NCBI GenBank assembly: GCA_900469625.1
Contig: UBXV01000007.1
Coordinates: forward strand, 124,001-188,000
DNA length: 64,000 nt
Source: Hyphomicrobiales bacterium
GTDB lineage: Bacteria > Pseudomonadota > Alphaproteobacteria > Rhizobiales > Rhizobiaceae
Direction: 5' to 3'
Shown: positions 16,162 to 58,284 of the stretch, one piece after another
Layout: each line of letters begins with the position of its first letter
How positions within the stretch are numbered: position 1 is the stretch's first letter
Position numbers and translations under genes: made by a program
Notes under the pieces: generated by a model
Database searches by the model: none
The model's input: the letters and a program-made list of their open reading frames with translations, nothing else
What the model was told of the DNA's origin: nothing

Positions 16162-16235
16162 TGGGGAATAGGTTAACGGTAGACCCACGGACTCTGACTC
16201 CGTTAGTCCTGGTTCGAATCCAGGTTCCCCAGCCA
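16162..16235 (+). tRNA. tRNA-Gln (anticodon CTG)
   Basis: A 74-nt cloverleaf including encoded CCA. The acceptor stem pairs TGGGGAA (16162-16168) with TTCCCCA (16225-16231). The anticodon stem ACGGA/TCCGT encloses the loop CTCTGAC, giving anticodon CTG, which reads CAG. The T arm contains GGTTCGAATCC. Its 3' end is the integration site of the island: 21 bp are repeated exactly at 58263-58283. Confidence 0.96.
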
Positions 16236-16236
16236 A
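16216..16236 (+). other. attL: left boundary of the genomic island
   Basis: The last 20 bases of the tRNA plus one more form a 21-bp sequence (from GAATCCAGG to CAGCCAA) that recurs exactly at 58263-58283. This is the usual signature of tyrosine-recombinase integration into a tRNA gene that restores the tRNA. The distance between the two copies gives an island of 42,047 bp. Confidence 0.9.
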
Positions 16237-16307
16237 TTCTCCCTAAAATCCCTTAATTCCTTGATTTTCCAGTCGTGCCGGATATCGGTTTGGCCTCAAT
16301 GGCGACC

Positions 16308-16343
16308 TGATGCCCAGAACTGGTGCCCAAAGGTGATGCCCAG
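16308..16343 (+). repeat. Three 13-bp-spaced direct repeats, probable integrase arm sites
   Basis: TGATGCCCAG (16308), TGGTGCCCAA (16321) and TGATGCCCAG (16334) recur with an exact 13-bp period between attL and the integrase fragment. Related sequence starting TGATGCCCAA is found in all the right-hand att-like repeats (R1-R6). This placement is what is expected of arm-type binding sites of a tyrosine integrase. Confidence 0.6.
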
Positions 16344-16393
16344 ACGCTTAGCGCGTCGCGGCCGACCCTTCGGGCGAAGTCAGGGTATTCATC

Positions 16394-16668
16394 ATGGCCG
16401 TGCGCCACGAGGTCGAGAATCTGATCCGCCGCGGAAACATCTTCTACTGGCGGCCGCGCATCCCGGCCTTCTTCGTCCATTGCCGCCCAGGCAGCCGCCT
16501 TTCACTCAGCCTTCATTGTTCGGACCATAGAAAGGCTCAGATCATCGGCCGGAAGCTCAACACCCGGCTGGCCGAACTGAAGATGAATTCGAAGGAAGTG
16601 ATGACCACCAAGAAGCAGCTCCAGATCCTGTTAGAGCACGTGCGGGACCAAGAGCTCGAAAGGCTTGC
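16394..16668 (+). pseudogene. Tyrosine integrase, N-terminal fragment
   Basis: About 91 codons with the N-terminal region typical of phage-type tyrosine recombinases (DUF6538-like): RRGNIFYWRPRIPAFFVHCRPGS, then LSLHCSDHRKAQIIGRKLNTRL. The core-binding and catalytic domains (Arg-His-Arg-Tyr) are absent. The frame runs into sequence that, read on the other strand, is the interrupted helicase region of hsdR, so the 3' part was lost by deletion with a junction near 16668. It lies immediately beside attL, the usual place for the island's integrase, and cannot be functional. Confidence 0.8.
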
Positions 16669-19033
16669 CTGTTGTCAGCAAATCGACGGTGACAACGTAC
16701 TTCGGATAAGGATCGTTTTTGAATTTCAGGATCAGGTCGTCGGCCTTTTCGACATTGCCGGTGATCTTCATCACCATGCCGTGCGGCACGGCGTCGTTGC
16801 CATATTCTTCCTGCAGCTCCTCGATCAACAGGCGGACGATATCATCCGCATGGGCATCGCGGGCAGCGAAGATCAGCGTCTTGCCCGGCTTACCCAGCGG
16901 AATTTCCGTGGCGATCGCCCGGCAGACGATACGGTTGAAGGCTTCCGAATAGACACGCTTGTTGAAGTCGGCGACGTCGTAGTCAAGCGAGATTTCATCC
17001 GGGAGCTCGAAAAGGTCGATCTGCCCGGTCGTACGGTCAATGATCTCGACCTCTTCGCCACCTTCGAAATGAATGCCGGCTTCCGAAAGCGCCGTGGTGA
17101 TGCGCTTCGGCGGCAGGTGATCGTTGAGGTAGCCTTCGACGACAGCCTGACGGTAGCCATAGTGGAAGACTGGATGGCCGAAGATCTCGCGGGTATGAAG
17201 TGCAGGCGTCGCCGTCAGCGCCACCTTCACGGCATCGAAGTAATCGAGGATCTGGCGATAGGCGGACTGGTAGTCATCCAAATTTCGGAAGCCGATATCG
17301 CTTTCACGCAGTTCTGCGTCCAGCGTGTAACCGCGATGCGCTTCATCGACGATGATGCAATCGAAGGTGCCAGGCGTCGGACGCTTGGCCGGATCAGGTT
17401 CGTTGAGGATGCGTGCGATCAGCGACTGGACGGTGGCGACCTGCACCTGATCCTCGTCCTCCGGAACCTTCTTCTCCAGTCCCGCAACCTTGTAGATCTG
17501 GGCGAAGTTCAGCATGCCCTCGATCTCGGTCGTTTCCAAGGCGTCGCTTGTCTGTTTACCGAGCGCCTTTCGATCAACCAGGAAGAGGATTCGGCGGAAG
17601 CGCTTATGCTTCAGCAGGCGGTACATCAGGGCAATGCTGGTGCGCGTCTTACCTGTCCCGGTTGCCATGGACACGAGGATATCGCGTTGGCCAGCGACGA
17701 CCGCATTCTCAATAGCGGCAATCGCGTCCTCTTGGTAGGGACGCATCCTGCCCTTGCCAAAGCTTTCCTCGGCAAGGCCCTGGGCGGCGGCGTCAAGATC
17801 CGTCCCGAGTATGTCGAGAAGATCTCTCGGCGAGAACCAAGCCGTCAGCGGCCGCGGATGATTGGTGTCGTGACGCAGATCGCAGAACCAGATGCCTGAT
17901 TTGGTCTGCCACTGGCGCACAAAAGGGCGACCATTGGTGGCGAAAACGAAAGGCACCCGGAAGGGATCGGCCAGTCCGTGCTTCCAAGGACCGTCCGCGT
18001 GGTCATGTTCCGGCGCGAGAGCGATCGTGCGGGCATAACGCTCTGCTTGCTGCAGCGTGGAGGGTACATCCACGCTCTCGCGCTTCGCTTCGATCACACC
18101 CACACAGGTCAAGCCGATGAACAGCGCATCGTCGGCGCGTCCGCCCTCCGCCGGCCATTCGGCAATGGCAAGGTTCCTACCTCCCTCCGGGCGAGCACCC
18201 TTCTGATAGACGAGAGTATCGCTATCAGCCTCCCACCCTGCATCGGCGAGCTGGACGTCAATCAGACGACGGGTCTGTCGTTCATCCAGCTCAAGGCGGC
18301 TGGCCGCCTGTAGGCCGGCCTGCTTGAATTCCATTTGCAATTGCAGTGGCTGAGCCTCGGCCTGCCTCTGCAACTCAGCTAGTTTACGAGCAAGTTCGGC
18401 CTGATTGGCCTCCATCTCGACTGCCGTTTGCTCCCAGACCGCACTATCGGCGGCGGCCTGACGCGCAAGCTCCTCGGCGGCGGCTCGTGCCTTGGACAGC
18501 TCATCGGCTGATGCATGGGCTGCCGCGAGCCGGCTTTCCGCTTCCTCAACCTGTCGCCGAAGGACAGTCAGTTCTGACTGCGTGGCTTGATCGAGTTCCT
18601 GCAAAGTATTTGGAGGTACGAATGGGCCAGGCTTGAAACCCGGATCGCGGCCATAGGTTCGCCGATACCAGACACCCAACGCACGGCAGAACTTGAGGGC
18701 TGACAGCGCTTCTACAGGCGAACCACTAAATCCATGGGTCGCCTCGTTGCCAGCTTTTCGTACCGCGTGAAAGATGTCTGCCACTTCTCGTGGCAAGACC
18801 TGTTGGGTTGTGAGACGACGGAGAAGGTCGTGTGTGGTCTCCCGGCTTGCAGTGTCATACACACCGGACAGAGCGGCAATCTCCTTGACCATGTATTCGC
18901 CGAATTGCCGGCTCTTTATCAGCGAGGTGTTCGCGTCCTCTGCAAAGAAGCGTTCGGCAAGCACGCCGAGCCTGTGAAGCTCAGGGCTAAGCTCCTTCAG
19001 GTGACCAAAATTTGCCGACAATGCCCCACCCAC
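16631..19033 (-). pseudogene. hsdR: Type I restriction HsdR (EcoEI_R-like), C-terminally truncated
   Basis: An 800-codon remnant of a type I restriction endonuclease subunit. It begins with a DUF4145-like region (residues ~20-130) and a coiled-coil stretch (~145-245). A PD-(D/E)XK nuclease follows (RADDALFIGLTCVGVIEAKRE), then the helicase motor with Walker A MATGTGKT, VDEAHRG and LTATP. The second RecA lobe stops inside motif V: VDLLTTG is followed by unrelated residues (KPFELLVPHVL) read from the integrase remnant. Full-length relatives extend several hundred residues further. No hsdM or hsdS is in the window, so it is almost surely inactive. Confidence 0.85.
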
Positions 19034-19131
19034 TGCTTCGTATCGCCCGGGTGGACCATGCCATACGTTTCGGGAGCAGGCAAACTAGAGTTGTAAGGTG
19101 TTGAGACTGGTAGATAACAATAGATCAAGAT

Positions 19132-19148
19132 GCGGCAATTATTTCCGC
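19132..19148 (-). repeat. Inverted copy of the 17-bp dyad found in R1-R6
   Basis: GCGGCAATTATTTCCGC here is the exact reverse complement of GCGGAAATAATTGCCGC, the dyad in R3 and R6. It lies about 100 bp upstream of the truncated hsdR. The rest of the R repeat was not recognised around it. The stretch 19034-19284 holds nothing else identifiable. Confidence 0.5.
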
Positions 19149-19284
19149 GAGGCTTCAAGAGAGTAACACGCCGGAAAATAGCACTCCGATTGTTCGCCCC
19201 AGGCCCAATCCTCGTAATACGTATCTCGATCAGATCGAGCCTAAATCGAGAATGGATGGTTTCATCGGAGCAGACGGCTATCGA

Positions 19285-19693
19285 TCATAGAAGCTGACGT
19301 TGCAAGGGCGCTCTGGAGCTCCGACTCGAGCCCAACTCGTCTTTCTTTAGTCGTTCTGCAGAGGTTTTGTCGCTGTTATCAAGCCCAACCTGTCTTACCA
19401 ACGTAGCAATCGGTTCCCCAACCAGTACGAAATCGGTAATGTCGAGTGGCGGAAGTTCCATCAACCGATCCGGGTCGCTTCTGACAATCTCGCGAAGCTC
19501 CATCAACAGCCGACCCAGTACGTTCCGGCCGGAAAATGACTGTCATCAGCGACCTTCGCGCCCCAATAGTCGTCTTTGCTCGAACTCTCGACAATCGGCC
19601 GGTCGCCTGTGGCCAGCAAAAGCGCAGAAAATTTGGAAGCGATAGCTGCCTTTCGTCGCACTGCCGAACGTTGGCTTTATATTGTGCCGCCAT
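19285..19693 (-). pseudogene. NADAR (YbiA-like) family remnant, frameshifted
   Basis: On the minus strand one frame reads ASKFSALLLATGDRPIVES then SKDDYWGAKVADD. After a frameshift near 19530 the next frame continues GRNVLGRLLMELREIV. Together these match the C-terminal half of NADAR domains, where TGD, VE, D-x-x-WG and G-N-LG-LLM-R are conserved. NADAR proteins act on ADP-ribosylated or damaged riboflavin-pathway metabolites. The N-terminal half and a start codon are absent (an in-frame stop lies just upstream), so this is a broken gene between hsdR and the helicase. Confidence 0.5.
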
Positions 19694-19770
19694 CTACCTG
19701 TTCTCTCGCACGTTGATGGGCTGATCGACCAGGGCTGCCATGACGGTCCAACGGGTCACTAATGCAATCA

Positions 19771-22700
19771 TCATGGCGATCTGGCGCCGTAGCAATGGCG
19801 TACCTCGGGTGGCGACAGATCAATTTTCCAAGCCGCTGCTTGTTCAGGAGTGATACCATTTCGCTCAATGGCCTCAAGCAAATCCTCTTGTCGAGGCAAG
19901 CCAATTACGAGGCGATAGGTTGCAAGGCGTTCGCGCAAGCGCGGCCAATAGTCTTGCTCGCGGCTGAAGGCGGGGTAGCTGACGATCCTCTTGATCTTCA
20001 CGGCTTCGTGGTCAGGTTCGAAGAGCCAGCAGGGTGCCAAGGGGTTATCGTTATCAAGCTGTTCGGCCTTCCCGAACAACTGCTTCCAAGGCTCTGTTGA
20101 GACATGGTCAGGCGCTGTCGAAAGGCCAGCGAGGCTGACATAGCTAGCGACGTTCAACCTCACCGCATGCCCCTTGTACCGATGCACACGTCCTTCGCGC
20201 TGCTCGAGTTCGACAGGCGAGCGGGGAAGGTTCCAGTGAACGACTGCATGACACCAAGGGTGGAAATCCAATCCCTCCTGGCCTACCGCAGTGGAAGCCA
20301 AGACGAACGGCCGGAACGGTGAATTGAACGCTGCTCGGACGGCATCCAGTCGGCTTACTGATCCATCGGAATCCTTGATCTCGGCAAATCGAATCGCATG
20401 CCGGCATCGAAGGCGAATAAAATCATTCTTCGCGCCCGGAGAACTTCCCTCCCGCCTTTCAAGGCCTCGGACGTCAATTGAAGCACGCTTCAAGGTCATG
20501 GCGGCATGAAGGCTTTTGGCCGCCCGCTCCACCTTTTCGTCCGCTGTTCCGTCGAACATCGCGAGCGCATCCGCCTCGAAATGCAAATGTTCATCGAGCA
20601 ACGCCTGAAGGTTACCGGCAGCGCAATATTCCAGCGCCTGATCCCAGAACACCCGCCTGCGACCGGGAAACTCCAACTGGACGGCTGCAGCCGCTTCTGC
20701 CTGGTTGAATAGGCTCTGGAAGCCCCGTCCGATGTGAAAAGCGGCACGAAGGAGCTGAATGCTGTTGGCTTGCCCACCCCAACTTCTGGTCAATGATCGG
20801 TAGGCGGATTGCCCAGGCGCACAAACGGCAATCCGTGCAAGCACGTTGATAAGGTTGCGTGGGCGCCGACCGAGCTGATCAGGATTCTCGACGATAAAGA
20901 TGATCGCATCGCGAACCCTTTCGAGATCGGCAGAGCTTGTCTCGAATGCTGCCATGAACGGATCGTCGTGCTGCATCCATCGCCGAATGAGGTCCTGATC
21001 CTCAAGCAAAAGCGGCGCGGCCCAATACCAACGGTCGTCAATGCGACCCGTAGAAGTGCCGCCGGGCAACTTCCTAAGAGCCGATCTAATCGTGTCGGCC
21101 ACCAGCCGGACATGTTCGTCGCGCGCTATCGGCGAACCCGCTTTCGCGGCAACTGGCAACGGATCCCCCCAACGCGACAGGCAACTGCCCGCGGTCAGCA
21201 AAAGCAACGGAACCATTGCTAGCGTGGGATCCCCGGCTGCTTGATGGGCTCGTCCAAGACGCAGCATGTTCCCAAGGTCACCAAACCGCTTGTGTCTTTG
21301 ACCAACCACCTCTTCACTTCGGCGGGTTCGTTTCCCGCGCGATCCGCGCATCCCGGCGGCCAAGCGCTGTTCTGTTTCATAGGAAACCAGCGCGCTGATC
21401 GCATCAGGCGCGAGCCGCCACTCGCTGAACACCAAGCGCTTCACGTCCGACTTTACCTTGGCGAACACGCCAGCAGGTTCGTGATATGGCAGCGATGGGG
21501 GAACCCATAGAAGCCGCTCCGCGCCGTCCTTCAGCACATCGCGTACCAAGTCGCGCATGCGCGGTGATGGCAGGTGAAGCGGTTCCAATCGCCGCAATAG
21601 TTGCTTGTCCAGCAGGAGTTTTCCGCTCTTTGCCTGTCGCGCGACATGGCGACGATCCGCGATAGTCTCGACCTCCGTTACGGCGTCGCGGAATTGATAG
21701 TCGCGCATGAAATCGAGAAAATATGGCGCTGATTTCCAGTATTCGACGGGATCGCGCACTTTGAGCCTCCGGGCGATCTGGCGTGCGGCCAGTGCGCCCT
21801 TGAGATCATCCGCTTCTACTGGTTCCGATCGAATATCTTCAGCAACCATCGCGTTTGCATCGGCCGTGGAAGCTGTTCGCTCGGTGCGGCACATGATCGA
21901 GCGTAGGATCTCGCAGGCCGCATCACGTGCGGATAAGATCGCCGTTGGATCAGGTGAGGTTGCCCTCAGCGCGCCGGCGTAGTGATCGAGATGATCCGAC
22001 AAGGCTACAGCAGTCTTGGCTCCAGCGAGAAAGCGGACGAGCGCTACGAAATCGGTATAGGGCCGTTCGCCTTCCGCTATCGCTCCGCCAGGCATGCGGT
22101 AAGGGGTGGCTGAAAGAAGCAGGACGCGACGGTGTTGCGCATCTTGGCCCAGAAGCTGGTCTGCGAGGCGAACACCGAAATCAGCATCGGCACGTGAGAC
22201 GTCAAGAAGTTGCGAAAACTTTTGGAACTCATCCACGATCACCATGCCATTGCTCGCCAATGCCTTGGCGCTGCAGAGGGCTAATTCCTTACGAAGGCGT
22301 CCGATCAGGACGTCGCGCCGTTTCTTAAACGTCCTCTGCTCAGTCGGGCCTTTCCAATTTACGGCGTCGCGCGCGAGAGCGCGCACCGCGGCTGCCAAGT
22401 CCGTGTCGGCAGAGACGGCTTTGCGAAATTCCGACTTCACTGTGCCGTCAATGTGGTTCGAGCCGATTTTCCAGAGTGCTTCCTTCCACGTTTGGTCGGA
22501 GACCTGCTGCAGGATCAACTGGAAGCCGGGAGACCTAAAGATGGAACGTAAGCAATGGAAGATCAGCGCGCGTTCCCGCACCAACCCTGACCGCCCCGAT
22601 ACCTTGAACGAGGTATCCGGCGTCAGCGCGAAATAGCGAATGCCTTCCGAAGACGGCTTCTCAAGGGAAAGAAGAGTGAGGCGAGTAGCCTTGCCGTTGC

Positions 22701-22953
22701 CACCATGGCCATGCACGACGAGCCGCTTCAGGTTCTGGCTGGCAACGGGTTGGCTCGAGCAGAGATAGACGATGTCTATGGCCTGACCATTTCGCGCGCC
22801 GAGCGCATGAGCAATGACCTCCCGGGCGACTATCGTCTTGCCGAGGCCAACCTCGTCAGCGACGAGAAAGCGCTTTGCGGGCTGTGGATCCAACCAGAAG
22901 CGCTTGATGACATAGGCGATCGTACGGGCCTGAAATCGTGTCGGACCGCTCAT
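19771..22953 (-). CDS. Large SF2 helicase, predicted defence protein
   Basis: A 1060-residue superfamily 2 helicase/translocase. Walker A ADEVGLGKT lies at residues 32-40, a DEAH-like box VDEFQKF near 250 and motif III LLLSATPYRMPGG near 290. A C-terminal helicase lobe follows, with STAVGQEGLDFHPW and the arginine-finger motif QREGRVHRYKGH. A long central insert (~350-800) has no recognised domain. The ATG at 22953 overlaps the upstream PLD stop as ATGA, so translation is coupled and this start is preferred over 22989. It forms one operon with the PLD and DUF6361 genes. A role in anti-phage defence is inferred from architecture and context. Confidence 0.8.
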   Translation of the reverse strand: MSGPTRFQARTIAYVIKRFWLDPQPAKRFLVADEVGLGKTIVAREVIAHALGARNGQAIDIVYLCSSQPVASQNLKRLVVHGHGGNGKATRLTLLSLEKPSSEGIRYFALTPDTSFKVSGRSGLVRERALIFHCLRSIFRSPGFQLILQQVSDQTWKEALWKIGSNHIDGTVKSEFRKAVSADTDLAAAVRALARDAVNWKGPTEQRTFKKRRDVLIGRLRKELALCSAKALASNGMVIVDEFQKFSQLLDVSRADADFGVRLADQLLGQDAQHRRVLLLSATPYRMPGGAIAEGERPYTDFVALVRFLAGAKTAVALSDHLDHYAGALRATSPDPTAILSARDAACEILRSIMCRTERTASTADANAMVAEDIRSEPVEADDLKGALAARQIARRLKVRDPVEYWKSAPYFLDFMRDYQFRDAVTEVETIADRRHVARQAKSGKLLLDKQLLRRLEPLHLPSPRMRDLVRDVLKDGAERLLWVPPSLPYHEPAGVFAKVKSDVKRLVFSEWRLAPDAISALVSYETEQRLAAGMRGSRGKRTRRSEEVVGQRHKRFGDLGNMLRLGRAHQAAGDPTLAMVPLLLLTAGSCLSRWGDPLPVAAKAGSPIARDEHVRLVADTIRSALRKLPGGTSTGRIDDRWYWAAPLLLEDQDLIRRWMQHDDPFMAAFETSSADLERVRDAIIFIVENPDQLGRRPRNLINVLARIAVCAPGQSAYRSLTRSWGGQANSIQLLRAAFHIGRGFQSLFNQAEAAAAVQLEFPGRRRVFWDQALEYCAAGNLQALLDEHLHFEADALAMFDGTADEKVERAAKSLHAAMTLKRASIDVRGLERREGSSPGAKNDFIRLRCRHAIRFAEIKDSDGSVSRLDAVRAAFNSPFRPFVLASTAVGQEGLDFHPWCHAVVHWNLPRSPVELEQREGRVHRYKGHAVRLNVASYVSLAGLSTAPDHVSTEPWKQLFGKAEQLDNDNPLAPCWLFEPDHEAVKIKRIVSYPAFSREQDYWPRLRERLATYRLVIGLPRQEDLLEAIERNGITPEQAAAWKIDLSPPEVRHCYGARSP

Positions 22954-24719
22954 GTCTGCTGCTTCGCCGAGTGTAAAAGAGCCGCCCAAAGCTGCCTGAA
23001 CTCAGCCGTTGTCACCTCGGCCAGTTGCTCCTCGCCCAGCGCCTCGAATGTCTCAACGATCGATTTCAGACGGGTCGGCTCATCGGCCGCGCACCGGATG
23101 AGCATTTCCAGCAAACCAGATTGTCCTTGGCTGCCCCAGCTTGTCGGGCCGCTACCGTCGCCGGTTCCACCATCGGTGTTTTCTAGCGATTGGAAGTCGC
23201 CCAGCATAGTTCGCAGGAATTCGGCGAAGGATCGCTCGTTAGGGAGTAGGGATTTTAATGCCGCCGTCCGACGCTCCCCCTCATCGACACCTCGAACCTC
23301 CAGATTGAGCACGAAAGCGAATGGCCCATCGGGGCCGTCGGCCTCAAAAGCGGTAAAACCGGTAATTTGCGATAGTTCGAGGGTGCCTTGGAACGGTGCC
23401 GCCTTCCCAAGCCGAAGCGACTGACCGCATTGACTGGCGCGGGCCTGCGACTGAGTGACGGGTCTAAAGCGCAGACTATGGAGCGGAAGCTGGTCATCGT
23501 CCAATACTGCTCCCGGCACCAGCGCCAGGGACCAGCCATCATTGCATGGCACACATTCCATATGAAGGTGGGCGGCTATCACGGCGTTCCTAGCAGGTCT
23601 GTCGTCAAACGTAACAGGCGGCGTCTCCAAGGTGACAGGCGGTTCAAAATCTTCGACAACCGTCCCGAGATTTTTTGGCGTGAGTAGGTCATCAACTTCC
23701 GCAAACCCGGCTGCCGCCGGACACTCGAAACTCACCATGAACTCAACATTGCGACCGCTGATGGCAGATCGGGTCGCATTCATCGAGCCGATGGCCACCC
23801 GCATCCTTGACCCTTTCTGCCAGATCAAGGCTTTGGCATGCAGACCCGCACTAGGTGCGCCAAGCTCACCACCGGGCGGGGATAGAACCATCTGGCGCTC
23901 GAACCGGTCGCTCACGGACGGCCAGCATTGCGTAAGAGCGTCCGCTCGCGAGAGGATTAGCGCACGCGACGATGCGGTCTTGCTCAGTTCGCTAACGGCC
24001 GAAGCCGTCAAGAAGGGGGAAATGATTGCTAAACGGTCACTGGCGGGCTGACGCCAAGCGCGCCCTTGCTGATCGCCGATCAAGTGAAACTCGGGATGCC
24101 CCTTTCCGGTCGGTGCTTTCCACCTCACCCTTTCGGAATCAGCAGCCAACGTCAGAATCATGTTTCGACGTTTGGGATCAATCGGTCTTGGTCCGCTGTT
24201 TGCCAGATGCTGCAAAAGTCTGCCGAGATCGTTGGGCTTTTGAGGGCTTTTGCCGGGCGTGCCTTCCATTATCACGCCAGCGTCCCAAGACCGGTCGGCA
24301 GTAAGATTTCTACTCATCACGGCTACTCTTAGGATGTCGCGTTTTCCCTCGGCGTGACAAAAACGGACGATCCAGACTTTAGGATGGAAACTCCCACCGT
24401 TCGGCGCGATGGCTTCCCGAACCATATCTTCCGCCTCGATGATCGCTGGTGACACGAGCTGGGCCGGGTATATGCCTCCCATCTGACAGAAAACCACCGT
24501 ACGGTCGCAGACTCGTTTCAATGCTGCCAACTCGGCAGCACTTATAGTCCCGGCTGGTCGGTCGGTCTTGCCCTGCGTGTCTACGAGCATTGCGGCGGGC
24601 AGGCTTAGGATCGTATCGAGTGAAGCGCTATAGGTCGTCACGACAAGAGCATCTAGGATATAGCCAGTTGGGGGACGGACAATGTCATAGGTCGAAATGC
24701 GTACCTGAGGTTCAAGCAT
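22950..24719 (-). CDS. Phospholipase D-like (HKD) nuclease-fold protein
   Basis: A 589-residue protein with two HKD-type motifs of the phospholipase D superfamily: SFHPKVWIVRF followed by AVMSRNLTADRSWD (residues ~115-150), and GLHAKALIWQ followed by RVAIGSMNATRSAI (~285-315). In defence operons such proteins usually act as nucleases, as with DrmC of DISARM, but activity is not shown here. The start at 24719 overlaps the DUF6361 stop by 8 nt (ATGCTTGA) and is preferred over 24740. Its own stop overlaps the helicase start, so all three genes are translationally coupled. Confidence 0.75.
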   Translation of the reverse strand: MLEPQVRISTYDIVRPPTGYILDALVVTTYSASLDTILSLPAAMLVDTQGKTDRPAGTISAAELAALKRVCDRTVVFCQMGGIYPAQLVSPAIIEAEDMVREAIAPNGGSFHPKVWIVRFCHAEGKRDILRVAVMSRNLTADRSWDAGVIMEGTPGKSPQKPNDLGRLLQHLANSGPRPIDPKRRNMILTLAADSERVRWKAPTGKGHPEFHLIGDQQGRAWRQPASDRLAIISPFLTASAVSELSKTASSRALILSRADALTQCWPSVSDRFERQMVLSPPGGELGAPSAGLHAKALIWQKGSRMRVAIGSMNATRSAISGRNVEFMVSFECPAAAGFAEVDDLLTPKNLGTVVEDFEPPVTLETPPVTFDDRPARNAVIAAHLHMECVPCNDGWSLALVPGAVLDDDQLPLHSLRFRPVTQSQARASQCGQSLRLGKAAPFQGTLELSQITGFTAFEADGPDGPFAFVLNLEVRGVDEGERRTAALKSLLPNERSFAEFLRTMLGDFQSLENTDGGTGDGSGPTSWGSQGQSGLLEMLIRCAADEPTRLKSIVETFEALGEEQLAEVTTAEFRQLWAALLHSAKQQT

Positions 24720-48789: not shown

Positions 48790-49572
48790 ATGAAAGACGC
48801 TGATCTCTTAAAAGCCGAAACGGTTGCTAGAATGCTCCTCGAGATCCTTCCGCCTCCATCCCGGCGGATGCATTTCGACGATGTTCGCATTGAGGAAGAG
48901 ACTTTCAGCCTCCCTGATCTCGAAGAGCCCGTCGAGGTCCCAATGATCCGAGAGCGCGCGGCCGGTCTGCTGATACAGCTTGAACACCTTCTAAGTACTG
49001 CGAATTGGGCGCCTCGTGGCGACATGCCACTATTTCCGACTGCCACGCGTTGGACGCTTGGATGGGTCGAACGAGAGGCTCCAATGCGGAAAGTCCTCCG
49101 CGGGTATCTTCTGCCGGTGAAGCAATTCCCGATTTTGGGAAGCGTCTCGGATCGAGCAATTGCGTTTCTGTCGAAGATTTCAGGCTGGAATGACTACGTG
49201 AAACGCGAGAACCATCCGGGCGTTGGCATTCATTATCACTACCTTTCCGACGCCAAAAAGCGATCCGACGTGCTGCTCGCATGGGATACTCGGTGGCACG
49301 CATCGCCGGGGACGGATGCCTTGCGACCATTGTTCGGAGAAAAGCATGCCGAAGGAAAAGCAGGCTTTAGCGCACGCCCCTGGGCGTGGTGCGACAAAAA
49401 GAAAATCTCGATGTACAACGCTTGCGCGGGCGACCTTAACAAGTGGCCGATCGGCGAGTTTCGTTGCGCATCTCAAAATGCTTTAGCAGTGTGGCCGGGC
49501 GTTGCGGTGATTACTCCGACACAGATCGTAGTCGCCACGATCACCGCGCCGGGGCAAAAGCACCGGCGTTGA
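48790..49572 (+). CDS. Hypothetical protein
   Basis: A 260-residue protein I do not recognise. The ATG at 48790 is taken as start; the in-frame extension to 48643 reads poorly and overlaps the HEPN-like gene start. The N-terminal third is acidic and helical (VARMLLEILPPPSRRM, then EEETFSLPDLEEPVEVP). The remainder is Trp/Tyr/His-rich (HPGVGIHYHYLSDAKK, FSARPWAWCDKKKI). No signal or membrane segment is visible. It ends 22 bp before the convergent HNH gene. Confidence 0.55.
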   Translation: MKDADLLKAETVARMLLEILPPPSRRMHFDDVRIEEETFSLPDLEEPVEVPMIRERAAGLLIQLEHLLSTANWAPRGDMPLFPTATRWTLGWVEREAPMRKVLRGYLLPVKQFPILGSVSDRAIAFLSKISGWNDYVKRENHPGVGIHYHYLSDAKKRSDVLLAWDTRWHASPGTDALRPLFGEKHAEGKAGFSARPWAWCDKKKISMYNACAGDLNKWPIGEFRCASQNALAVWPGVAVITPTQIVVATITAPGQKHRR

Positions 49573-49593
49573 ATCACGGCCGATGCCTATTGG

Positions 49594-50445: not shown

Positions 50446-51112
50446 ATTCTGATTTCCTGATTTTTGAAACGCGGCCGGACTTTATCGCCGTATAGTTGGC
50501 AATCAAGCCTCACATCGTCGGTATCGCGCCTTCGCTTGAGCGGGTGTAGATAACATTTTGCAGGTCCGGTTACGGGGCTATTGCGGTCTGGATCCGCTGA
50601 ACCATCGAGCGATGCGTCTGGATCCCCGTGGATGTTGTGATGAACTTAGGAAGCGGAACGTCCCCGCCGGGCGCAGTCGGTCCCGGCTTCCGGGGCGATT
50701 CTCTACCCGGCTTGGCAAGGTCGAGCTCTTTTCCGTTAATCTGTAGCCGGGGGGAGAGGATCGTCCGCATTCGACCCGAAGCGGACATTCCTAAACCTGT
50801 CCCCGGAAGTCTGAGATGGGTGGTAACCAGAATGGCAGCTAGTGGGCCCAAGCACTTTAAAGCCGCCCTTCCCCATCTTATCGTGCAGGCAGCCGAGCGA
50901 CACGGTTCCGTGCTGAGAAAGCTGGATGCGCTAGCATGCCGCCGGACTTTACCGTCACAGGGGTTGTGGATCTGCACGGCAGCTTTCAACAGCGTCGGCA
51001 CCGGGCCATAGAACTCGCCAGGTCAGTCATATCCTTCGCTGAGAACGCTGAAGGACGCTCAGGAGCTTGCAAGTCTGGACGGTTTTCAGCAGCCTAACCA
51101 GGACACAAGCGC
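50446..51112. other. Intergenic without supported gene
   Basis: About 670 bp. Two overlapping open frames exist (minus 50570-51001, plus 50628-51011). Their translations are low in recognisable motifs and rich in Pro, Ser, Arg and Thr, so neither is called. It probably holds the promoter of the HNH gene and decayed sequence. Confidence 0.35.
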
Positions 51113-52000
51113 TCAGCCGCTGCCGTCTCGTTCGCTTGCGCCACCAAATTGGGGGAACCAGTATTTCAGGTCTTCAGGGCCCTTAAGAGCCTCGAAGCCC
51201 ACGAGGTCTTCTGCGGCTTCGAGCGGGTCGATCCGACGCTTGTAGGTCGGGATCCTAGGTGCTGCATCGGCAGCCGAAATGATCTGCGCCTCGAGCTCGG
51301 GCTCTATGCGGGGGCCCAGGAATACTCGCGTCATCGCGCTACGTTCGAAGTGCACAATACGGTCCTTCGGCGGCTGTTCCTCGTCGGCGATCATGATCAG
51401 CCGCCACTCCTTTTCCCCCGCCCAGTCGATATGTTTGAAGTACAGCAGTTTTGAAAGGAGATGGGAGTCGTAGCGCGTATCGCCGCCCATGAAGCTGGAC
51501 GGACAGAACCCGGGATTCCTGTCGATATATCGCACTTGCCCGAAATGCCCTCCGAGACGAGACAACGCAGGATCCGTAGAGAATTCGATAACGACGCCGG
51601 CATGGTTGTCGCCGTAGGTTCCCCACATACGCTGGTTGTTTCGTTCGGACGAGAAACAGGTCACTCCCGAGTGCTGCATAATGAGGTCGAGGTTGATGTT
51701 GAGCACCTCGATCGCCTTCTTCTCGGTCTCCCGCGCCTCCTCGAAATCCAAGTCCTTTGAGGCGTCGAACGCCTCTTGGAAGTCTGAGAACACGCCCGTC
51801 GCTACCAACCCCCTCGCATAGATTCGGTGCCTGGTATCCTCGTCCAACCTGAAGAGGGATCTCGCGCGGAACTCATACAAGTCATTCTGACCGGCAGCAG
51901 GTGCCAGGAACAGCGTCGAGTCCCGGATGATCTGCAATGCCCTGGCGGCACTGGTGTACTTATAGAGAAACGGCGGCGGCTCATCGTGGTCTTGAGTCAT
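51113..52000 (-). CDS. DUF2971 family protein
   Basis: A 295-residue protein of the DUF2971 family. It is recognised by LYKYTSAARALQIIRDSTLFLAP near the start, NDLYEFRA, the CFSSERNNQRMWGTYGDNHAGVVIEF core and KEWRLI near the end. The family function is unknown, and members are frequent on islands and near defence genes. The ATG at 52000 has GAG upstream; GTG at 52009 is an alternative start. It is the last gene before repeat R5. Confidence 0.75.
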   Translation of the reverse strand: MTQDHDEPPPFLYKYTSAARALQIIRDSTLFLAPAAGQNDLYEFRARSLFRLDEDTRHRIYARGLVATGVFSDFQEAFDASKDLDFEEARETEKKAIEVLNINLDLIMQHSGVTCFSSERNNQRMWGTYGDNHAGVVIEFSTDPALSRLGGHFGQVRYIDRNPGFCPSSFMGGDTRYDSHLLSKLLYFKHIDWAGEKEWRLIMIADEEQPPKDRIVHFERSAMTRVFLGPRIEPELEAQIISAADAAPRIPTYKRRIDPLEAAEDLVGFEALKGPEDLKYWFPQFGGASERDGSG

Positions 52001-52343
52001 CTGAGACACTCGTTGATAGGGCGGAAACTTTACCTAAAGGAACGGTTGCTCGTCGTCCAGATGGGGTGATCCGGCGACAGGCTGACAACCAGTGCGTCAA
52101 GGTTGTAATTCAACTCGACGTGCCGTGGCGATGGCAGCGTATCCCAAGGCATGACATCTAGCGAATACATGGCAGCTTTCAGGAAGCGCTAAATCACTGG
52201 GCGGGACACAAATGGGGCGCTTCGCCGACGTCGTTTGCAAACCGCCAAATGGCAGCTTACGGGCAGTGGAAGACGAGCGCCCAACGTCTGAAGTGGGGTC
52301 GAGAGGCGACAATGATCGAGGTGTGCCACTACGTCCGCTATTG

Positions 52344-52715
52344 GCGCAAAGCTGCCGCGCGCCTTATGACGGCTTCACTGTCAACCGTGAGGTGCGACAG
52401 CGGAAATAATTGCCGTTTAACCCGCCGGTTGACTGATGCCCAAAGCCAGGGCACAAAGATGGCATCCACGGTCGCTCGCGATTGGAAAACAGAGGGAGTT
52501 TCAAGGCTTTTCTTCTAAGCTATTGAAATCATGTGAGAATCCAGGCCCCCAGGCAAGCCATTTTCAGCGATTTTTCAATCCAAATTGGCGACTATCTCCC
52601 GCAAGGAAAAGTGGCGTCTTCTCAATAACTTGGACGATCTCGGCCGCAGTTCCTTGGGCCATCCGTCCTGTTCGAAGGCGGCTGGGCAAATTGGCTGGGG
52701 ACCCGCAAGCAACCC
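52344..52715 (+). repeat. R5: island att-like junction repeat
   Basis: The fifth copy. It shares with R6 a longer left part (GCGCAAAGCTGCCGCGCGCC, 52344 on). It has the dyad GCGGAAATAATTGCCGT (52400-52416), the arm region from TGATGCCCAAAG (52434), a decayed core (52537-52557, GAATCCAGGCCCCCAGGCA) and a tail shared with R4 ending in GGCTGGGGACCC near 52703. The remainder of the gap 52001-52827 holds no supported gene. Confidence 0.8.
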
Positions 52716-52827
52716 ACTACAATACGTCCTGTCACAGTAGCCAATCTCTCCTCTTAGCGCGAGGCGGAAGGCCGCATTCGGCCAGAAGCGCGATTGCTGC
52801 GCGGCCACCGGCCGCGCATCAATAAAC

Positions 52828-53871
<1,044 letters not shown>

Positions 53872-53881
53872 GGGTTAAATC

Positions 53882-54277
53882 ATGCTCATTTCGGAATTTG
53901 CCAGAGCCGCGGATCTGCCGGTCGATACGATCCGCTTCTACATCACCAAGGGTCTTTTGAAGCCCGAGCGTAGCACCAAGGGCGGATCCAATCCCTACCA
54001 GGTGTTCCGGAAGGAAGACGTGACGGCCGCCCGCATGATCCGCCTGCAACAGACGCTGGGCTATTCGCTTGGCGAGATTCTCGAACTCAATGAGGAATAT
54101 CGTGCTGGCGAACATTCGCCGGAACGCACGGTCGAGGTCCTGCAGTCGCAGATCGCTCGGCTGGAAGAACGGAAAGCCGCACTGGATCAGGCCCTGTCCT
54201 TCCTGCGTGGCAAGGTGGATTGGATCAAGGCGGGGAAGCCGGAAGGTGCGCCCCGCCTTGAAGACTATCAATGCTGA
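53882..54277 (+). CDS. MerR-family transcriptional regulator
   Basis: A 131-residue MerR-type regulator. The winged helix-turn-helix is at residues 1-70 (ISEFARAADLPVDTIRFYIT and GLLKPERS) and a coiled coil at ~75-120 (EVLQSQIARLEERKAALDQALSF). It has no Cys-rich metal site, so it is more likely to sense a small molecule or oxidation-derived compound. It is divergent from the aldo/keto reductase gene across a classic MerR promoter. Its 3' end overlaps the convergent epimerase gene by 10 bp. Confidence 0.85.
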   Translation: MLISEFARAADLPVDTIRFYITKGLLKPERSTKGGSNPYQVFRKEDVTAARMIRLQQTLGYSLGEILELNEEYRAGEHSPERTVEVLQSQIARLEERKAALDQALSFLRGKVDWIKAGKPEGAPRLEDYQC

Positions 54278-55302
54278 TGGGCGCGCAATTCGGCCAGCCC
54301 CTCTTCCCTTAATATGACGGGTGCATAGCCCAATTCGCGCCGGGCCTTGCCGATATCGAAGGATACTTCGACGGCGGAGGTCGCATAGGTTTGAAGCGTG
54401 AGCGGCGGCACGATCCGACCACGGGAGATGAGACCAAGCAGGTCCCCGATCGCCGCAACGGTGCGAACGACGAAACGCGGCACTGTCTTGTCCGGCACCG
54501 AGTGCCCCTGCGTTTCAATCAAAGCCGAGACCATGGTGCGGAACGGCAAGGGGTCTCCATCCGAGATGAAATAAACCTCGCCGCCCTGCCCCTTGATGAG
54601 TGCCAGTTCGACGGCATGGCAAAGATTGGCGATATGGGTCGTCGAGGTCAGGTAAGTCCCGCCAGAAATCCAGGCGAACTTTCCCGAACGGACCGCCTCC
54701 ATGAGCATCGGCAGCGCGGTCGTATCGTCACGGCCCCAGACGAAGCGCGGGCGCAAGACCACGACCGAGAGATCTGGACCATTGGCAGCAAGCGCTATCC
54801 GCTCGGCCTCTGCCTTGGTGCGGGAATATCCGCCTGCAGGATTTCGCGGTAAAGGCATGGTCTCGTCTACAGCGACCAGCGGCCTACCCGTGGCCAGCAC
54901 CGATTCCGTGCTGAGGTGGATGACCTTGGAGATGCCGGCAACGCGCGCGGCATCGAACACGGCGCGCGTGCCGTCCTCATTGATGCGGCGTTGTGCCTCC
55001 GTCGCGGGACCATGATCGGTATCGGCCGAGGCATGGACCAGAGCATCGCAGCCTGCCATTCCCGTGGCTAGGGTGGGATCGAAAAGATCGCCTCTGAACG
55101 GGATCGCTCCGAGTGTCCGAACCCGTTCCGCCGACGCGTCACTGCGGGCCAGCGCCGTGACCGTGACGCCGCGAGCGACGAAATGGCGGATCAGGTTGCG
55201 GCCGACGTAACCGCTCCCTCCTGTCAGGAAGATGCGCTGGAACGGGACGCGTTTATCCGTGGCCGCGGCAGGGGCGGCAATCCTGTCTGTCATGTCATTC
55301 AC
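54268..55302 (-). CDS. NAD-dependent epimerase/dehydratase family protein
   Basis: A 344-residue extended short-chain dehydrogenase. The Rossmann motif is in IFLTGGSGYVGRNL and the catalytic YxxxK in GYSRTKAEAER. The pattern LVHASADTDHG and VVLRPRFVWGRDD fits the sterol-dehydrogenase/NAD-epimerase group that includes 3-beta-hydroxysteroid dehydrogenase-like proteins. The substrate is unknown. It is 18 bp downstream of the TetR-family gene on the same strand, so the two are probably co-transcribed. Confidence 0.85.
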   Translation of the reverse strand: MNDMTDRIAAPAAATDKRVPFQRIFLTGGSGYVGRNLIRHFVARGVTVTALARSDASAERVRTLGAIPFRGDLFDPTLATGMAGCDALVHASADTDHGPATEAQRRINEDGTRAVFDAARVAGISKVIHLSTESVLATGRPLVAVDETMPLPRNPAGGYSRTKAEAERIALAANGPDLSVVVLRPRFVWGRDDTTALPMLMEAVRSGKFAWISGGTYLTSTTHIANLCHAVELALIKGQGGEVYFISDGDPLPFRTMVSALIETQGHSVPDKTVPRFVVRTVAAIGDLLGLISRGRIVPPLTLQTYATSAVEVSFDIGKARRELGYAPVILREEGLAELRAHQH

Positions 55303-55320
55303 CTGAAGGTACTGGGAGTG

Positions 55321-55905
55321 TCAGCTCGTCCCGGCAACGGGAAGATCGGTCTCCTCCGGATGCACCGTGACGAGCCAGTTGATCTCGCGAAGGATCCGAT
55401 CACGGTCTTCACGCTCGAAATGATGGAAATCGAGATGTTCGAGGAACTTCAGTCCTTCGAGGGCCAGATAGGCCAGGAGTGCGCCGCGCGATGAAGGGGA
55501 CGTTTCCTCGATGCGGGCGATTGTCCGGGCCTGGCTCTGCTGCATCTTGCCGCGCAATCCGGCATCGAGCGCAAGCGCGGCGCTGAGGTTGAGCGCAACC
55601 GCCTTGAACTCTTCGGGTGGCGGCGCGGATGCGGCAAGGATTCGGCCCCTGATGGCCCGATCCTCAGGGACATCGATCTGCAGCTCCATCCCGGAATTAT
55701 GGGCATTGTCGCGCTCGAACGCGCGGTCGACGATCGCTTCGATCAGGGCCTGCTTCGACTTATGGTCGTAGAGTACGCTTGCCTTGTTGACACCCGCCTC
55801 CCTGGAGACCGCGTCGATCGTCAGATTGGCGGCGCCATCGCGCCCGACAACTCGTTCCGCGGCATCAAGGACCGCCTGCTGATCGATAACCCGTTTCCTG
55901 CCCAT
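55321..55905 (-). CDS. TetR-family transcriptional regulator
   Basis: A 194-residue TetR-type regulator. The N-terminal helix-turn-helix is clear (AVLDAAERVVGRDGAANLTI and SREAGVNKASVLYDHKSKQAL), followed by a helical ligand-binding domain. The start at 55905 (MGRKRVIDQ) is preferred over 55926. It sits between the DUF1330 gene and the epimerase gene on the same strand and probably regulates this small operon; the ligand is unknown. Confidence 0.85.
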   Translation of the reverse strand: MGRKRVIDQQAVLDAAERVVGRDGAANLTIDAVSREAGVNKASVLYDHKSKQALIEAIVDRAFERDNAHNSGMELQIDVPEDRAIRGRILAASAPPPEEFKAVALNLSAALALDAGLRGKMQQSQARTIARIEETSPSSRGALLAYLALEGLKFLEHLDFHHFEREDRDRILREINWLVTVHPEETDLPVAGTS

Positions 55906-55979
55906 CGTCCCACCGATTATTTCCAACCAGATGGTTATAAATAATCGAATTGAACGGTGTCAAGCCGGCGGCACGATCC

Positions 55980-56264
55980 CTATCCTTCCAGAATGGACAA
56001 TTCCCGCGAATATGCCCGCGCCGCAAGCGTGAGCGATTGCTGATACTCCGGATCGTCGTAACAAGCCCTGGCCGTCTCGTAGCGGTCGAACTTCAGGATG
56101 AACTGTCGCGGGAAATGCCGCCCTTCGACGGTCTCGACCCGTGATCTGCCGGCGATGATCTCCGCTCCGTATCGCGCGGCGATAACCGAGAAGATCGCGT
56201 TATAGGCTGCGAGCGCCTCCACGTCCTCGACATCGCCGCCTTTGACGATCCAGTATCCGGGCAT
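55980..56264 (-). CDS. DUF1330 family protein
   Basis: A 94-residue protein of the DUF1330 (dimeric alpha/beta-barrel) family, recognised by MPGYWIVKGGDVEDVEALAAY and RFPRQFILKFD-like sequence near the middle (HFPRQFILKFDRYETARACYDD). The start at 56264 matches the usual family start, while the in-frame upstream codon at 56306 adds 14 residues not seen in relatives. The activity is unknown; such small barrels often act on phenolic or polyketide-like compounds. It lies between the SDR and TetR genes. Confidence 0.75.
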   Translation of the reverse strand: MPGYWIVKGGDVEDVEALAAYNAIFSVIAARYGAEIIAGRSRVETVEGRHFPRQFILKFDRYETARACYDDPEYQQSLTLAARAYSRELSILEG

Positions 56265-56331
56265 ATCCAGCCATCCTTTGAATGCGAGATACAGCGGCCC
56301 CTGCATGGAAGCCGCTGCATGGGTATGTTCC

Positions 56332-57036
56332 TCAAACCGACCGTGTCAGGCCGCCATCGACCTTGAGGTTCTGGCCGGTGATGTAGCCTGCCCCTTGCGA
56401 GACAAGGAAGGAAACGGTCGCGGCCACCTCGGCGCTGGTGCCGTATCGCTTCATGGGAACCATGTCGCGACGTTCCTCGGTGCCGGGCAAGCTGTCGATC
56501 CAGCCGGGCAGCACGTTGTTGATGCGGATGTTGTCGGCTGCATAGGTGTCGGCATAGATCTTGGTGTAGGAGGCAAGCCCGGCGCGGAACACAGCCGACG
56601 TCGGGAACATCGCGGCTGGCTCGAAGGCCCAGGCGGTGGAGATGTTGACGATCGCACCTGATTTCTGCGCCTGCATGATCGGCGTGACCAGCCTGACGGG
56701 GCGAATGACGTTCATCAAATAAACGTCCATGCCGGTATGCCACTGCTCATCGGTGATCTCGGTGATCCCTGCGCGCGGACCGTGGCCTGCACTGTTGACG
56801 AGCGCGTCGATCCGCCCCCATTTCTCCATCGTGGCATCGACAAGCCGCTTCAGGTCGTCGTTCGACTGGTTGGAGCCCGTCACACCGATACCGCCGAGTT
56901 CGGCAGCCAGTGCCTCACCCTTTCCGGAGGACGACAGGATAGCCACCTTGTATCCATCTGCCGCAAGCCGCTTGGCCGCCTCGGCCCCCATTCCACTGCC
57001 ACCTGCAGTAATGATCGCGACTTTTTCTATTGCCAT
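56332..57036 (-). CDS. Short-chain dehydrogenase-like protein lacking the usual YxxxK
   Basis: A 234-residue short-chain dehydrogenase/reductase. The cofactor motif TAGGSGMG, the NSAG motif and the C-terminal GYITGQNLKVDGG are normal. At the catalytic site, where YSASK is expected, the sequence is TSAVFRAGLASYTK, so Tyr and Lys are replaced. Relatives I recall share this variant, so it may be a distinct subgroup with another mechanism or a binding role. It is divergent from the LysR gene at 57154 and upstream of DUF1330 on the same strand, which suggests an operon under LysR control. Confidence 0.8.
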   Translation of the reverse strand: MAIEKVAIITAGGSGMGAEAAKRLAADGYKVAILSSSGKGEALAAELGGIGVTGSNQSNDDLKRLVDATMEKWGRIDALVNSAGHGPRAGITEITDEQWHTGMDVYLMNVIRPVRLVTPIMQAQKSGAIVNISTAWAFEPAAMFPTSAVFRAGLASYTKIYADTYAADNIRINNVLPGWIDSLPGTEERRDMVPMKRYGTSAEVAATVSFLVSQGAGYITGQNLKVDGGLTRSV

Positions 57037-57153
57037 GGCGGTCGTCCTTCTCGTCGATGCATTGATTGATTACCACTGAAACAAGAGATATCATCGCGAA
57101 GATCGAACGCGCCAATCAGTTCTCCTGAATTTTGACGATAGAAAAACTACTGA

Positions 57154-58056
57154 ATGACCAATCCCCTCGGCAGGCTACCGTCTCTCAATGGCCTGAAGGC
57201 TTTCGAAGCTGCGGCACGCCACCTGAACTTTCGTCTGGCAGCGGATGAGCTTGGCGTGACCCAGGGCGCGGTGGCGCAACAGGTGCGCGGGCTGGAAGCG
57301 GAACTGGGCCTGCAACTGTTCGAGCGACTGCCGCGAACCCTGGCCCTCACAGGCGAAGGCCGCGCCTACATCGCCGATATCAGCCGGGCGTTCGAGATCA
57401 TCGCACGCGCCACGGGCGACCTGAAGCCTCAACCTGTCAGACTCGCGATCAGCACGACACCCACCTTCGCATCGAAGTGGCTGATCCCTCGCTTGCCGGA
57501 TCTGACGGCGAAACATCCGGACCTCGACATCCACATCGTCGCGACCGACCGTATCTCGAATTTCCAGGTGGATGGTGTCGATCTTGCCGTGCGATACGGG
57601 CACCCGCCATTCGGGCCTGGACTTGCTTCGGAATTGCTGTTCGAGCAGGAGATCATCGCCGCCTGCAGCCCCATGCTACTTCGGGATCGCGGCGTGCCGA
57701 GGACCCTCGCAGAACTGTCCGGATATGCGCTTCTGCAGGACACGCATAATTTCTGGCCGGAATTCATCGAGCGGCAGTTTGGGATGTCTGGTCAGATCGA
57801 TATGCCGGCATTCAGGCGCATCAGCTTCAACCAGACATCCCACGCCATCGACGCCGCGATCGCGGGTCAGGGTATCGTGTTGGCGACCCGCAATTTCGTG
57901 GCCAGCGATCTGCAGGGAGGTCGCCTTGTCCAAATCGACAAGGTCAAGCTTCGCGGCCCGTCGGACTTCTACCTTGTGTGGCCGAAGCATCGGAAATCGG
58001 CAGCGATCGAGGCCGTGAGAGCGTGGGTGAAGTCAACAGCAGACCAGCATACATGA
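57154..58056 (+). CDS. LysR-family transcriptional regulator (GcvA-like)
   Basis: A 300-residue LysR-type regulator of the GcvA subgroup: LPSLNGLKAFEAAARHLNF, the helix-turn-helix TQGAVAQQVRGLEAELGLQLF, then an effector domain starting near residue 90 with VRLAISTTPTFASKWLIPRL. It is divergent from the SDR gene with about 117 bp between starts, the normal arrangement for a LysR protein controlling its neighbour. It is the last gene of the island, ending just before R6 and attR. Confidence 0.88.
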   Translation: MTNPLGRLPSLNGLKAFEAAARHLNFRLAADELGVTQGAVAQQVRGLEAELGLQLFERLPRTLALTGEGRAYIADISRAFEIIARATGDLKPQPVRLAISTTPTFASKWLIPRLPDLTAKHPDLDIHIVATDRISNFQVDGVDLAVRYGHPPFGPGLASELLFEQEIIAACSPMLLRDRGVPRTLAELSGYALLQDTHNFWPEFIERQFGMSGQIDMPAFRRISFNQTSHAIDAAIAGQGIVLATRNFVASDLQGGRLVQIDKVKLRGPSDFYLVWPKHRKSAAIEAVRAWVKSTADQHT

Positions 58057-58069
58057 ATCACCGCTCTGC

Positions 58070-58284
58070 GCGCAAAGCTGCCGCGCGCCTTATGACGGCT
58101 TCACTGGCAAACGTGTGGTGCGACAGCGGAAATAATTGCCGCTCAAACCCGCCGGTTGACTGATGCCCAAAGCCAGGGCACAAAGATGGCATCCACGGTC
58201 GCTCGCGATGGGAAAAAGAAGGAATTTCAAGGCTTTTCTGCTAAGTCATTGAAATTATGTGAGAATCCAGGTTCCCCAGCCAAA
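58070..58284 (+). repeat. R6: rightmost junction repeat, containing attR
   Basis: The sixth copy, lacking the tail because chromosomal DNA follows. It has the left part shared with R5 (58070 on), the dyad GCGGAAATAATTGCCGC (58126-58142) and the arm region at 58161 (TGATGCCCAAAGC, CAGGGCACAAAGA, TGGCATCCACGGT, in 13-bp steps). It then has GTGAGAATCC and the perfect core at 58263-58283. Confidence 0.85.
58263..58283 (+). other. attR: right boundary of the genomic island
   Basis: A 21-bp sequence identical to 16216-16236 at the tRNA-Gln 3' end. It is the only internal or distal copy without a mismatch, which sets the right end of the island. Confidence 0.9.

Follow-up and report, generated by a model that had tools for sequence, protein, structure and literature searches.

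We have analyzed a window of 64,000 nt from a bacterium of the Hyphomicrobiales (Rhizobiaceae; assembly GCA_900469625.1, contig UBXV01000007.1, positions 124,001-188,000, forward strand), in which an island located at a tRNA-Gln gene is divided into modules by six direct repeats, R1 to R6. The comparison with other genomes indicates that this island is probably one example of a tRNA-Gln-anchored, cassette-like array of modules that is shuffled by site-specific recombination and is widespread in the Rhizobiaceae. The case is built from sequence, namely from the anatomy of the repeated site, its conservation, the changes in module context, an apparent recombination between its two cores that inverted a segment, and the association of the site with one integrase. 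The initial annotation had described integration at tRNA-Gln, att-like repeats and self-contained modules, and all this is supported. It had preferred to see in the repeats fossil attR/attL junctions; the data agree better with its alternative, in which a single integrase family serves a cassette-like array.

The tRNA-Gln(CTG) gene was located by ARAGORN at 16162-16235 (+). The attL core, GAATCCAGGTTCCCCAGCCA, is the final 20 bp of this gene (16216-16235). The same 20 bp are found again, without a single change, at 58263-58282, the far end of the island. Adjacent to the tRNA, the attL (P') arm (16236-16393, +) contains three direct arm-type repeats, TGATGCCCA, TGGTGCCCA and TGATGCCCA, with a spacing of 13 bp; in all, attL arms from 8 islands were examined. 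Between the tRNA and the start of the integrase there are also two extra copies of TGATGCCC (16308 and 16334) and one of TGGTGCCC (16321). TGATGCCC appears 9 times in the window against 2.75 expected, a number reached by none of 100 shuffles. The six repeats, all on the + strand, were recovered as one family (D1) by an unbiased repeat search. A profile built from these same sequences matched each of them over 156-158 bp with E values of 1.7e-49 to 5.7e-53, and R6 used as DNA query against the 6.54-Mb genome found exactly R1 to R6 at E<=0.001, all inside this array. The six co-oriented repeats of the initial annotation are thus confirmed. The arm motif that it ascribed to all six needs correction in two, R3 having CGATGCCC and R1 GTGAGAATCT.

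R1 to R5 are composite sites that run from the start of a dyad, through an arm, a first core (CL) and a tail, to the end of a second core (CR), while R6 is terminal. R1 (29318-29634, GAATCC of CL at 29456-29461), R2 (39207-39523, GAATCC at 39345-39350) and R3 (41545-41861, GAATCC at 41683-41688) have tails of type A; R4 (46772-47077, GAATCC at 46909-46914) and R5 (52399-52703, GAATCC at 52537-52542) have tails of type B. The core of these five, which reads 'GAATCC AAGGTCCCC AGGC' in type A and 'GAATCC AGGTCTCCC AGGC' in type B, is common to all and unlike the tRNA 3' end. Their tails end at GGCTGGGGACC, with one mismatch in the CR of R4, confirming the related tail noticed initially. R6 (58125-58282, GAATCC at 58263-58268) has the same arm and a perfect tRNA core, lacks tail and CR, and is followed directly by the chromosome, i.e., it is the attR. 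The copies of the tRNA 3' end reported for all six repeats are therefore real in R6 only; those in R1 to R5 are not decayed tRNA ends but a separate core. One more exact copy of GGCTGGGGACC is located at 26194-26204 (+), before a DUF6119/TIGR04141 gene, with no recognisable arm or tail nearby. It is possibly the remnant of a lost seventh site. The right flank after R6 was matched in all 16 genomes of the genus (counting the window's own). In three of the 15 relatives (G313, G270 and G312) the site is empty, with the tRNA-Gln gene ~140 bp from the aligned right flank; two (G310 and G316) have the arm at the tRNA-Gln locus, and in the other ten neither tRNA nor arm was found within the short loci read. 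This flank also contains a near-palindrome of 46 bp (59697-59742, 91% match to its own reverse complement).

To collect further sites, 297 genomes of the family were searched and 24 followed up; a pattern scan of a collection of 84,980 species provided at least 115 stretches, and three of 23 matching plasmid records were added. The scan used a 19-mer and favours sites carrying that block, and in the large family draws two DNA candidates were scored per genome, so genomes with sites may have been missed. Arm matches ending before profile position 150 and sites with less than 60 bp downstream were dropped, and sites with the same arm and the same core context were counted once (exact copies only, so that some genomes may repeat named contigs). 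We obtained at least 157 distinct sites, 97 classed by alignment score as internal (tails A 26, B 24, C 27, other 20) and 60 as terminal; two of the 60 read CAGGC and are probably internal, and four of the 20 'other' sites (G171, L240, L241 and L275) look terminal. The named genera with sites are Rhizobium, Ensifer/Sinorhizobium, Neorhizobium, Allorhizobium, Agrobacterium, Shinella and Peteryoungia. An order-wide draw gave matches at E<=1e-10 in two of 199 genomes, that of the window and another from its family, G128. A phage origin found no support, with no match to one exact 19-mer (which finds 30 of 52 known sites) in IMG/VR and none in GenBank phages. Among the matches listed, some metagenome-assembled genomes (MAGs) are labelled Arenimonas (L166), Acidobacteria (L170), Salinarchaeum (L231) and Planctomycetota (L267). 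L166 carries a full site and may be misbinned; no full site is listed for the other three.

All along this collection the internal site has the same order, an arm of ~138 bp with a near-invariant block of ~52 bp, the core CL, a tail of fixed length and the core CR. CL is 'GAATCC…CCCAGGC', unlike the 'CCCAGCCA' of the tRNA, and the internal cores read CAGGC or a near form in 75 of 97 sites, CAGCC in 3 and neither in 19. CR is TGGCTGGGGACCC, which differs by one or two letters from the reverse complement of the tRNA 3' end (GGTTCCCCAGCCA), and conservation stops sharply at the last base of CR. Allowing up to 3 mismatches within 400 bp, CR was present in 88 of the 97 internal sites against 8 of 97 shuffled ones, and in 7 of the 60 terminal sites against 2 of 60. 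CL being direct and CR inverted, the orientation of the cores alternates along the array. In 87 of the 97 sites the distance from CL on to CR was 141-164 bp. There are two length classes, separated by about one helical turn: CR follows at 147-153 bp in B and C, and of the 25 A sites with CR, 23 have it at 159-164 bp and two at 149. A central motif was detected in 71 of 84 tails and in one of 84 shuffled ones, nearly always 61-67 bp from CL and either 83-88 bp (B and C) or 95-97 bp (A) from CR. The extra ~10-11 bp of the A tails thus falls between motif and CR, and the distance to CL is kept. The fixed spacing of CL, motif and CR would suit a functional nucleoprotein site better than a scar. 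The arms, with a mean distance of 0.19 over all sites, do not cluster by tail type, and the mean distance among 95 tails is 0.51. Two possible identities of the tail were discarded. RNAalifold on five tail groups gave the CL/CR base pairs and weak local pairs, with no extended conserved stem like that of attC, and the attL-arm profile had no match in 84 tails read as inverted arms, the same as in shuffled tails.

Comparable arrays were read in other genomes. We found seven full arms over ~92 kb from the tRNA in G204, seven on one contig in G297, five on one contig in G075 and in G301, four in G045 and G299, three in G092, G305 and G304, and one in G069. The modules measure about 2-21 kb from site to site. 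All full arms were co-oriented in 15 of 16 multi-site arrays or stretches, Neorhizobium galegae (G300) being mixed, and partial arms on the opposite strand were seen in G047, G075 and G299. Two neighbouring modules of G204 contain a 1.03-kb duplicate (83266-84297 and 93087-94118 of the oriented island, 99.2%). Sites without tRNA or integrase, which the initial annotation held to speak against its interpretation, were found in part, in three plasmid stretches of 24-40 kb with no tRNA in the sequence read; yet there also the sites are located at the ends of gene blocks. Rhizobium rosettiformans p1 has three sites of type C, and R. ruizarguesonis pRlX5 has three sites, the last of which (L280, 27963) shows a perfect tRNA core and then a sequence similar to the attL arm, with no tRNA or integrase match in the stretch. 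In R. johnstonii pRL11 (L281) a single terminal-type site has a type I restriction island on one side and pca genes on the other. L209 has another such site, and the flank after it is 94% similar to that of L281; neither stretch, as far as read, has a tRNA.

The exchange points between genomes were located by looking for modules that are shared on one side of a site and not on the other. At the right end of modules 32 pairs share the end and 13 passed our filters (>=90% identity in the module, <70% in the continuation). Over the 1200 bp that lead up to the core, G047, Sinorhizobium psoraleae (L213) and Rhizobium vallis (L187) agree at 99.0-99.6%; beyond the core they are unrelated. G204 and L192 have two differences in the last 150 bp before the core and 86.5% identity over 1203 columns. 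One module is found in seven records, with 1.2-5.3 kb common at 88-95%: Ensifer sp. LC163, A. vitis, Rhizobium sp. Root708, a Phyllobacteriaceae MAG, Peteryoungia aggregata, an R. ruizarguesonis plasmid and G047. In six of them it stands before a full site, whose continuations are A, A, B, C, 'other' and terminal. For the left end we had 14 pairs, two of which lack CR in at least one member; four of the other 12 switch at CR. The pairs L210/L235 and G113/L264 have unrelated tails (49 and 52%) and a match that starts at CR, with 30-35% identity in the 40 bp before it, 82-90% in the next 60 and 95-96% after. In G113c6/L214 and L196/L253 it starts at CR as well, with partly similar tails (62 and 66%). 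The clearest pair is L210/L235, with common modules on both sides (92% left, 99% right) and tails from different families, for which reason the tail itself seems exchangeable. Within G204, two sites have an identical tail from GAATCC through GGCTGGGGACCC (CR) and then unrelated modules. Judged by these alignments, the switches fall at CL or in the adjoining arm, and at CR.

Inversion provides a second kind of evidence. In N. galegae a segment of 22 kb is inverted and both joins are located within nine bases, GGTCCCCAG, common to CL and the inverted CR. Reading from the tRNA, the first join runs arm, CL, tail B and CR and then, at GGGGACC, passes directly into an inverted CL and its arm. At the second, ~22 kb on, an arm-less tail A starts at GGGTCCCCAGGCAAGC with inverted module DNA before it. 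As read from the sequence, these joins are the expected product of recombination between a CR and a downstream CL. N. petrolearium (L247) has a like fused junction of CR with inverted CL and arm. Two more arm-less tails were seen, in L241 and L280.

In the window only the start of a tyrosine recombinase is left (16394-16666, +), matching amino acids 1-91 of an intact relative of 675 amino acids with 68% identity. The rest of the open reading frame (ORF; 16394-17899) is antisense to an HsdR-like fragment, and it is not an intact integrase. In G204 the integrase (6715-8787) and the HsdR-like region (25603-28033 of the oriented island) stand apart, and hence the window has probably suffered a deletion here. 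With its integrase truncated, its array is probably stalled. Full-length copies are found in relatives including G069, G153, G045, G204 and G092; that of G069 (675 amino acids) has DUF6538 and Phage_integrase domains, the latter just above the cut-off (28.4 against 27.1 bits). The canonical islands read have a single copy that starts ~155-160 bp from the tRNA. Not all islands conform. G128 has no more than a distant relative, a tandem junction in G047 and in G014 is followed by another, incomplete copy, and several islands end at contig breaks. G017 (oriented island 11499-26615) is a further exception; ~13 kb lie between its tRNA and the integrase, as though something else had been inserted there. 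Among the 297 genomes, the integrase (>=54% identity, fragments counted) was detected in 17, arms at E<=1e-12 in 24 and both in 16. It was present in 16 of the 24 arm-bearing genomes against one of the other 273 (Fisher p 1e-19, a value inflated by shared ancestry and with the 54% threshold picked after seeing the list). This integrase is the putative recombining enzyme at the sites.

The mechanism that we propose takes the module as running from CR to CL and the tail from CL to CR. A lone module, flanked by inverted cores, could only invert, and a module together with a tail, flanked by like cores, could be excised or inserted. Recombination of CL with CL or of CR with CR would insert, delete or swap module-plus-tail pairs, and that of CL with CR would invert the intervening stretch. 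Circles or co-integrates might be the form in which modules travel, and what arm and tail do in such a reaction is likewise conjectural. A CAGGC core used at attB would spoil the tRNA end, and module traffic would then stay inside the array. Because the internal cores are mostly CAGGC and not the CAGCC(A) of the tRNA, modules could enter without rewriting the tRNA.

Several observations weigh against a site-specific shuffling of modules. The last 65 bp up to the core are at least 98% identical in only three of the 13 right-end pairs (all with one module), 89-91% in four and 78-86% in six. Since most of these pairs have already diverged there, some crossovers may occur inside the arm, via homologous recombination. 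At the left end, six of the 12 pairs with CR share the tail too, and two could not be aligned after CR. The tail tracks the arm of its own site (Mantel r 0.25 for 35 modules, 30 of 2000 permutations; r 0.21 for 95 tails, 1 of 500) and more weakly the arm at the right end of its module (r 0.09, 322 of 2000). A 'tail-module-arm' cassette inherited as one unit was accordingly not supported by this test. The module-side flanks of CR are not conserved, so that CR may not be part of a full recombinase site, and the tails have neither a conserved interior fold nor detectable similarity to the attL arm. Fused inverted junctions appear in two genomes only, both Neorhizobium. Eight of the 24 site genomes, the window's included, have no counted integrase match, nor do the three plasmid stretches with sites match this integrase.

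These points would suit a different arrangement, in which the sites are conserved attR-type integrase sites and exchange is mainly RecA-dependent, through the ~138-bp arms and similar flanks. The ten of 13 right-end pairs that have diverged (78-91%) in the last 65 bp fit crossovers in the ~52-bp arm block, but the clearest CR switches join unrelated tails over about 13 bp of common sequence and the N. galegae inversion has its two ends within 9 shared bp, so that we regard RecA as an unlikely main agent. We are somewhat more sceptical of tandem accretion, by which whole islands integrated serially at the tRNA, each leaving an attR/attL junction, with later loss of integrases and decay of cores. 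True tandem-integration junctions do exist in the family; they have a perfect core and attL arm, followed by an incomplete integrase (G047, 64912) or by just its start (G014, 6739), or a core and attL-like sequence with no integrase match (G289, 17869). However, they look unlike R1 to R5, whose cores share derived letters across genera and which have a conserved tail unlike an attL arm, a fixed distance between CL and CR and no integrase match after them. Furthermore R6, the oldest on that hypothesis, is the only one with a perfect core. Independent decay would not yield cores and tails of a few families, common to many genera and with fixed spacing, which disfavours the fossil junctions of the initial annotation. 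Finally, the tail-CR unit might have another job, as regulatory element, small RNA or boundary element, with the exchange at CR incidental. A strong motif in fixed geometry and with no assigned function would agree with this, but Rfam gave nothing at gathering threshold over 29000-59000, a simple scan around R5 found no promoter- or terminator-like site, the tail lacks a conserved interior fold, and CR repeats the att core in inverted form and is fused to CL in the inversion. We consider this very improbable.

Among the known systems, integrons have one tyrosine recombinase at one end and a repeated site, usually in one orientation, with mixed functions; their attC folds as single-stranded DNA and the cassettes are usually single genes. 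The arrays described here have likewise a recombinase at one end and a repeated site, and differ by the absence of a conserved interior fold, by the 2-21 kb between sites and by the tRNA-core anchor. The cores here resemble the tRNA-Gln 3' end and its inverted copy. The pdif/dif modules of Acinetobacter are similar in that alternating, inversely oriented cores bound the modules, which are shuffled and inverted at the sites by XerCD, and in the account of PMC13141974 a lone module cannot be excised alone. Those are short Xer sites on plasmids served by the host XerC and XerD, whereas here there is a dedicated long tyrosine recombinase at a tRNA, an arm of ~138 bp per site, and every alternate module is a fixed tail of ~150/161 bp. 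The ssrA islands of Dehalococcoides, and with them the CIME or accretion islands, also have tandem modules by one RNA gene, many without an integration module (PMC3146451). According to that article the repeat in Dehalococcoides is the 20-bp ssrA end, and in 16 of 31 islands the integrase is a serine recombinase; the internal sites here have their own core, arm, tail and inverted core. In PAISt of Streptomyces turgidiscabies, which has a tyrosine recombinase, excision is modular and uses repeats of which two flank the island and one is internal, but the repeat is an 8-bp palindrome with one internal site, and the abstract mentions no composite site family (PMC4057263). The genomic islands at tRNA hot spots of Sinorhizobium meliloti share tRNA-end integration, direct repeats and one stacked case (PMC11476347); the passages concerned describe no internal site class or module array, and 'Gln' is found 0 times in the main text. 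In a search by title and start of abstract, which mostly leaves subscription papers outside its scope and is not a claim of absence from print, we found no description of such arrays in Rhizobiaceae. Set against dif modules and integrons, the best reading is that the arrays would work alike and belong to neither. They could equally well turn out, or fail, to be a third cassette class beside those two, defined by a tRNA-anchored long tyrosine recombinase, a composite double-core site and multi-gene modules. In such a class the altered internal core would keep the traffic in the array, sparing the tRNA, pairs of like cores would exchange module-plus-tail units and opposite cores would invert modules.

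The cargo of the window appears mixed from its predicted genes (restriction fragment, candidate defence, RiPP-type and metabolic), not defence only. Module 1 (16667-29317) contains the HsdR-like fragment, ZacA/B/C-like genes (19771-25950, -) and the DUF6119/TIGR04141 gene, and because of the exact CR at 26194 it could perhaps be two modules. In module 2 (29635-39206) there is a NERD/UvrD helicase and a TmtA-like gene, split into 36690-38615 and 31496-34417 by an IS21-family istA/istB pair (34542-36661). Module 3 (39524-41544) is a single ORF of 430 amino acids (39979-41271, -) with no match in Pfam, PADLOC or NCBIfam; any match to this module was found in six of 247 family genomes, one being the window's own and the other five of only 26-99 bp. 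Module 4 (41862-46771) codes for a glycosyltransferase (42799-44439) and a radical-SAM (S-adenosylmethionine) protein (44506-46338) close to the C-methyltransferase family involved in the maturation of ribosomally synthesised and post-translationally modified peptides (RiPPs), at 276.6 bits, below the curated cut-off of 281.85. Candidate defence genes appear in module 5 (47078-52398), an endonuclease-effector/DUF4263-like gene (49594-50445) and a PDC-S31-like DUF2971 gene (51113-52009). Module 6 (52704-58124) contains genes for an aldo-keto reductase, an epimerase/3beta-HSD-like protein, a TetR regulator, a short-chain dehydrogenase/reductase and a LysR regulator, and its two scanned ORFs had no PADLOC match.

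If this reading is true, it would account for the stacking, reordering and exchange of defence and metabolic blocks among genera of Rhizobiaceae at one chromosomal address, and it offers an exact and testable grammar of sites. Should the recombinase act on the double-core site, nature would here have a means of moving multi-gene blocks in register that spares the tRNA target. The assembly of defence islands would thus become a question that can be approached at the bench.

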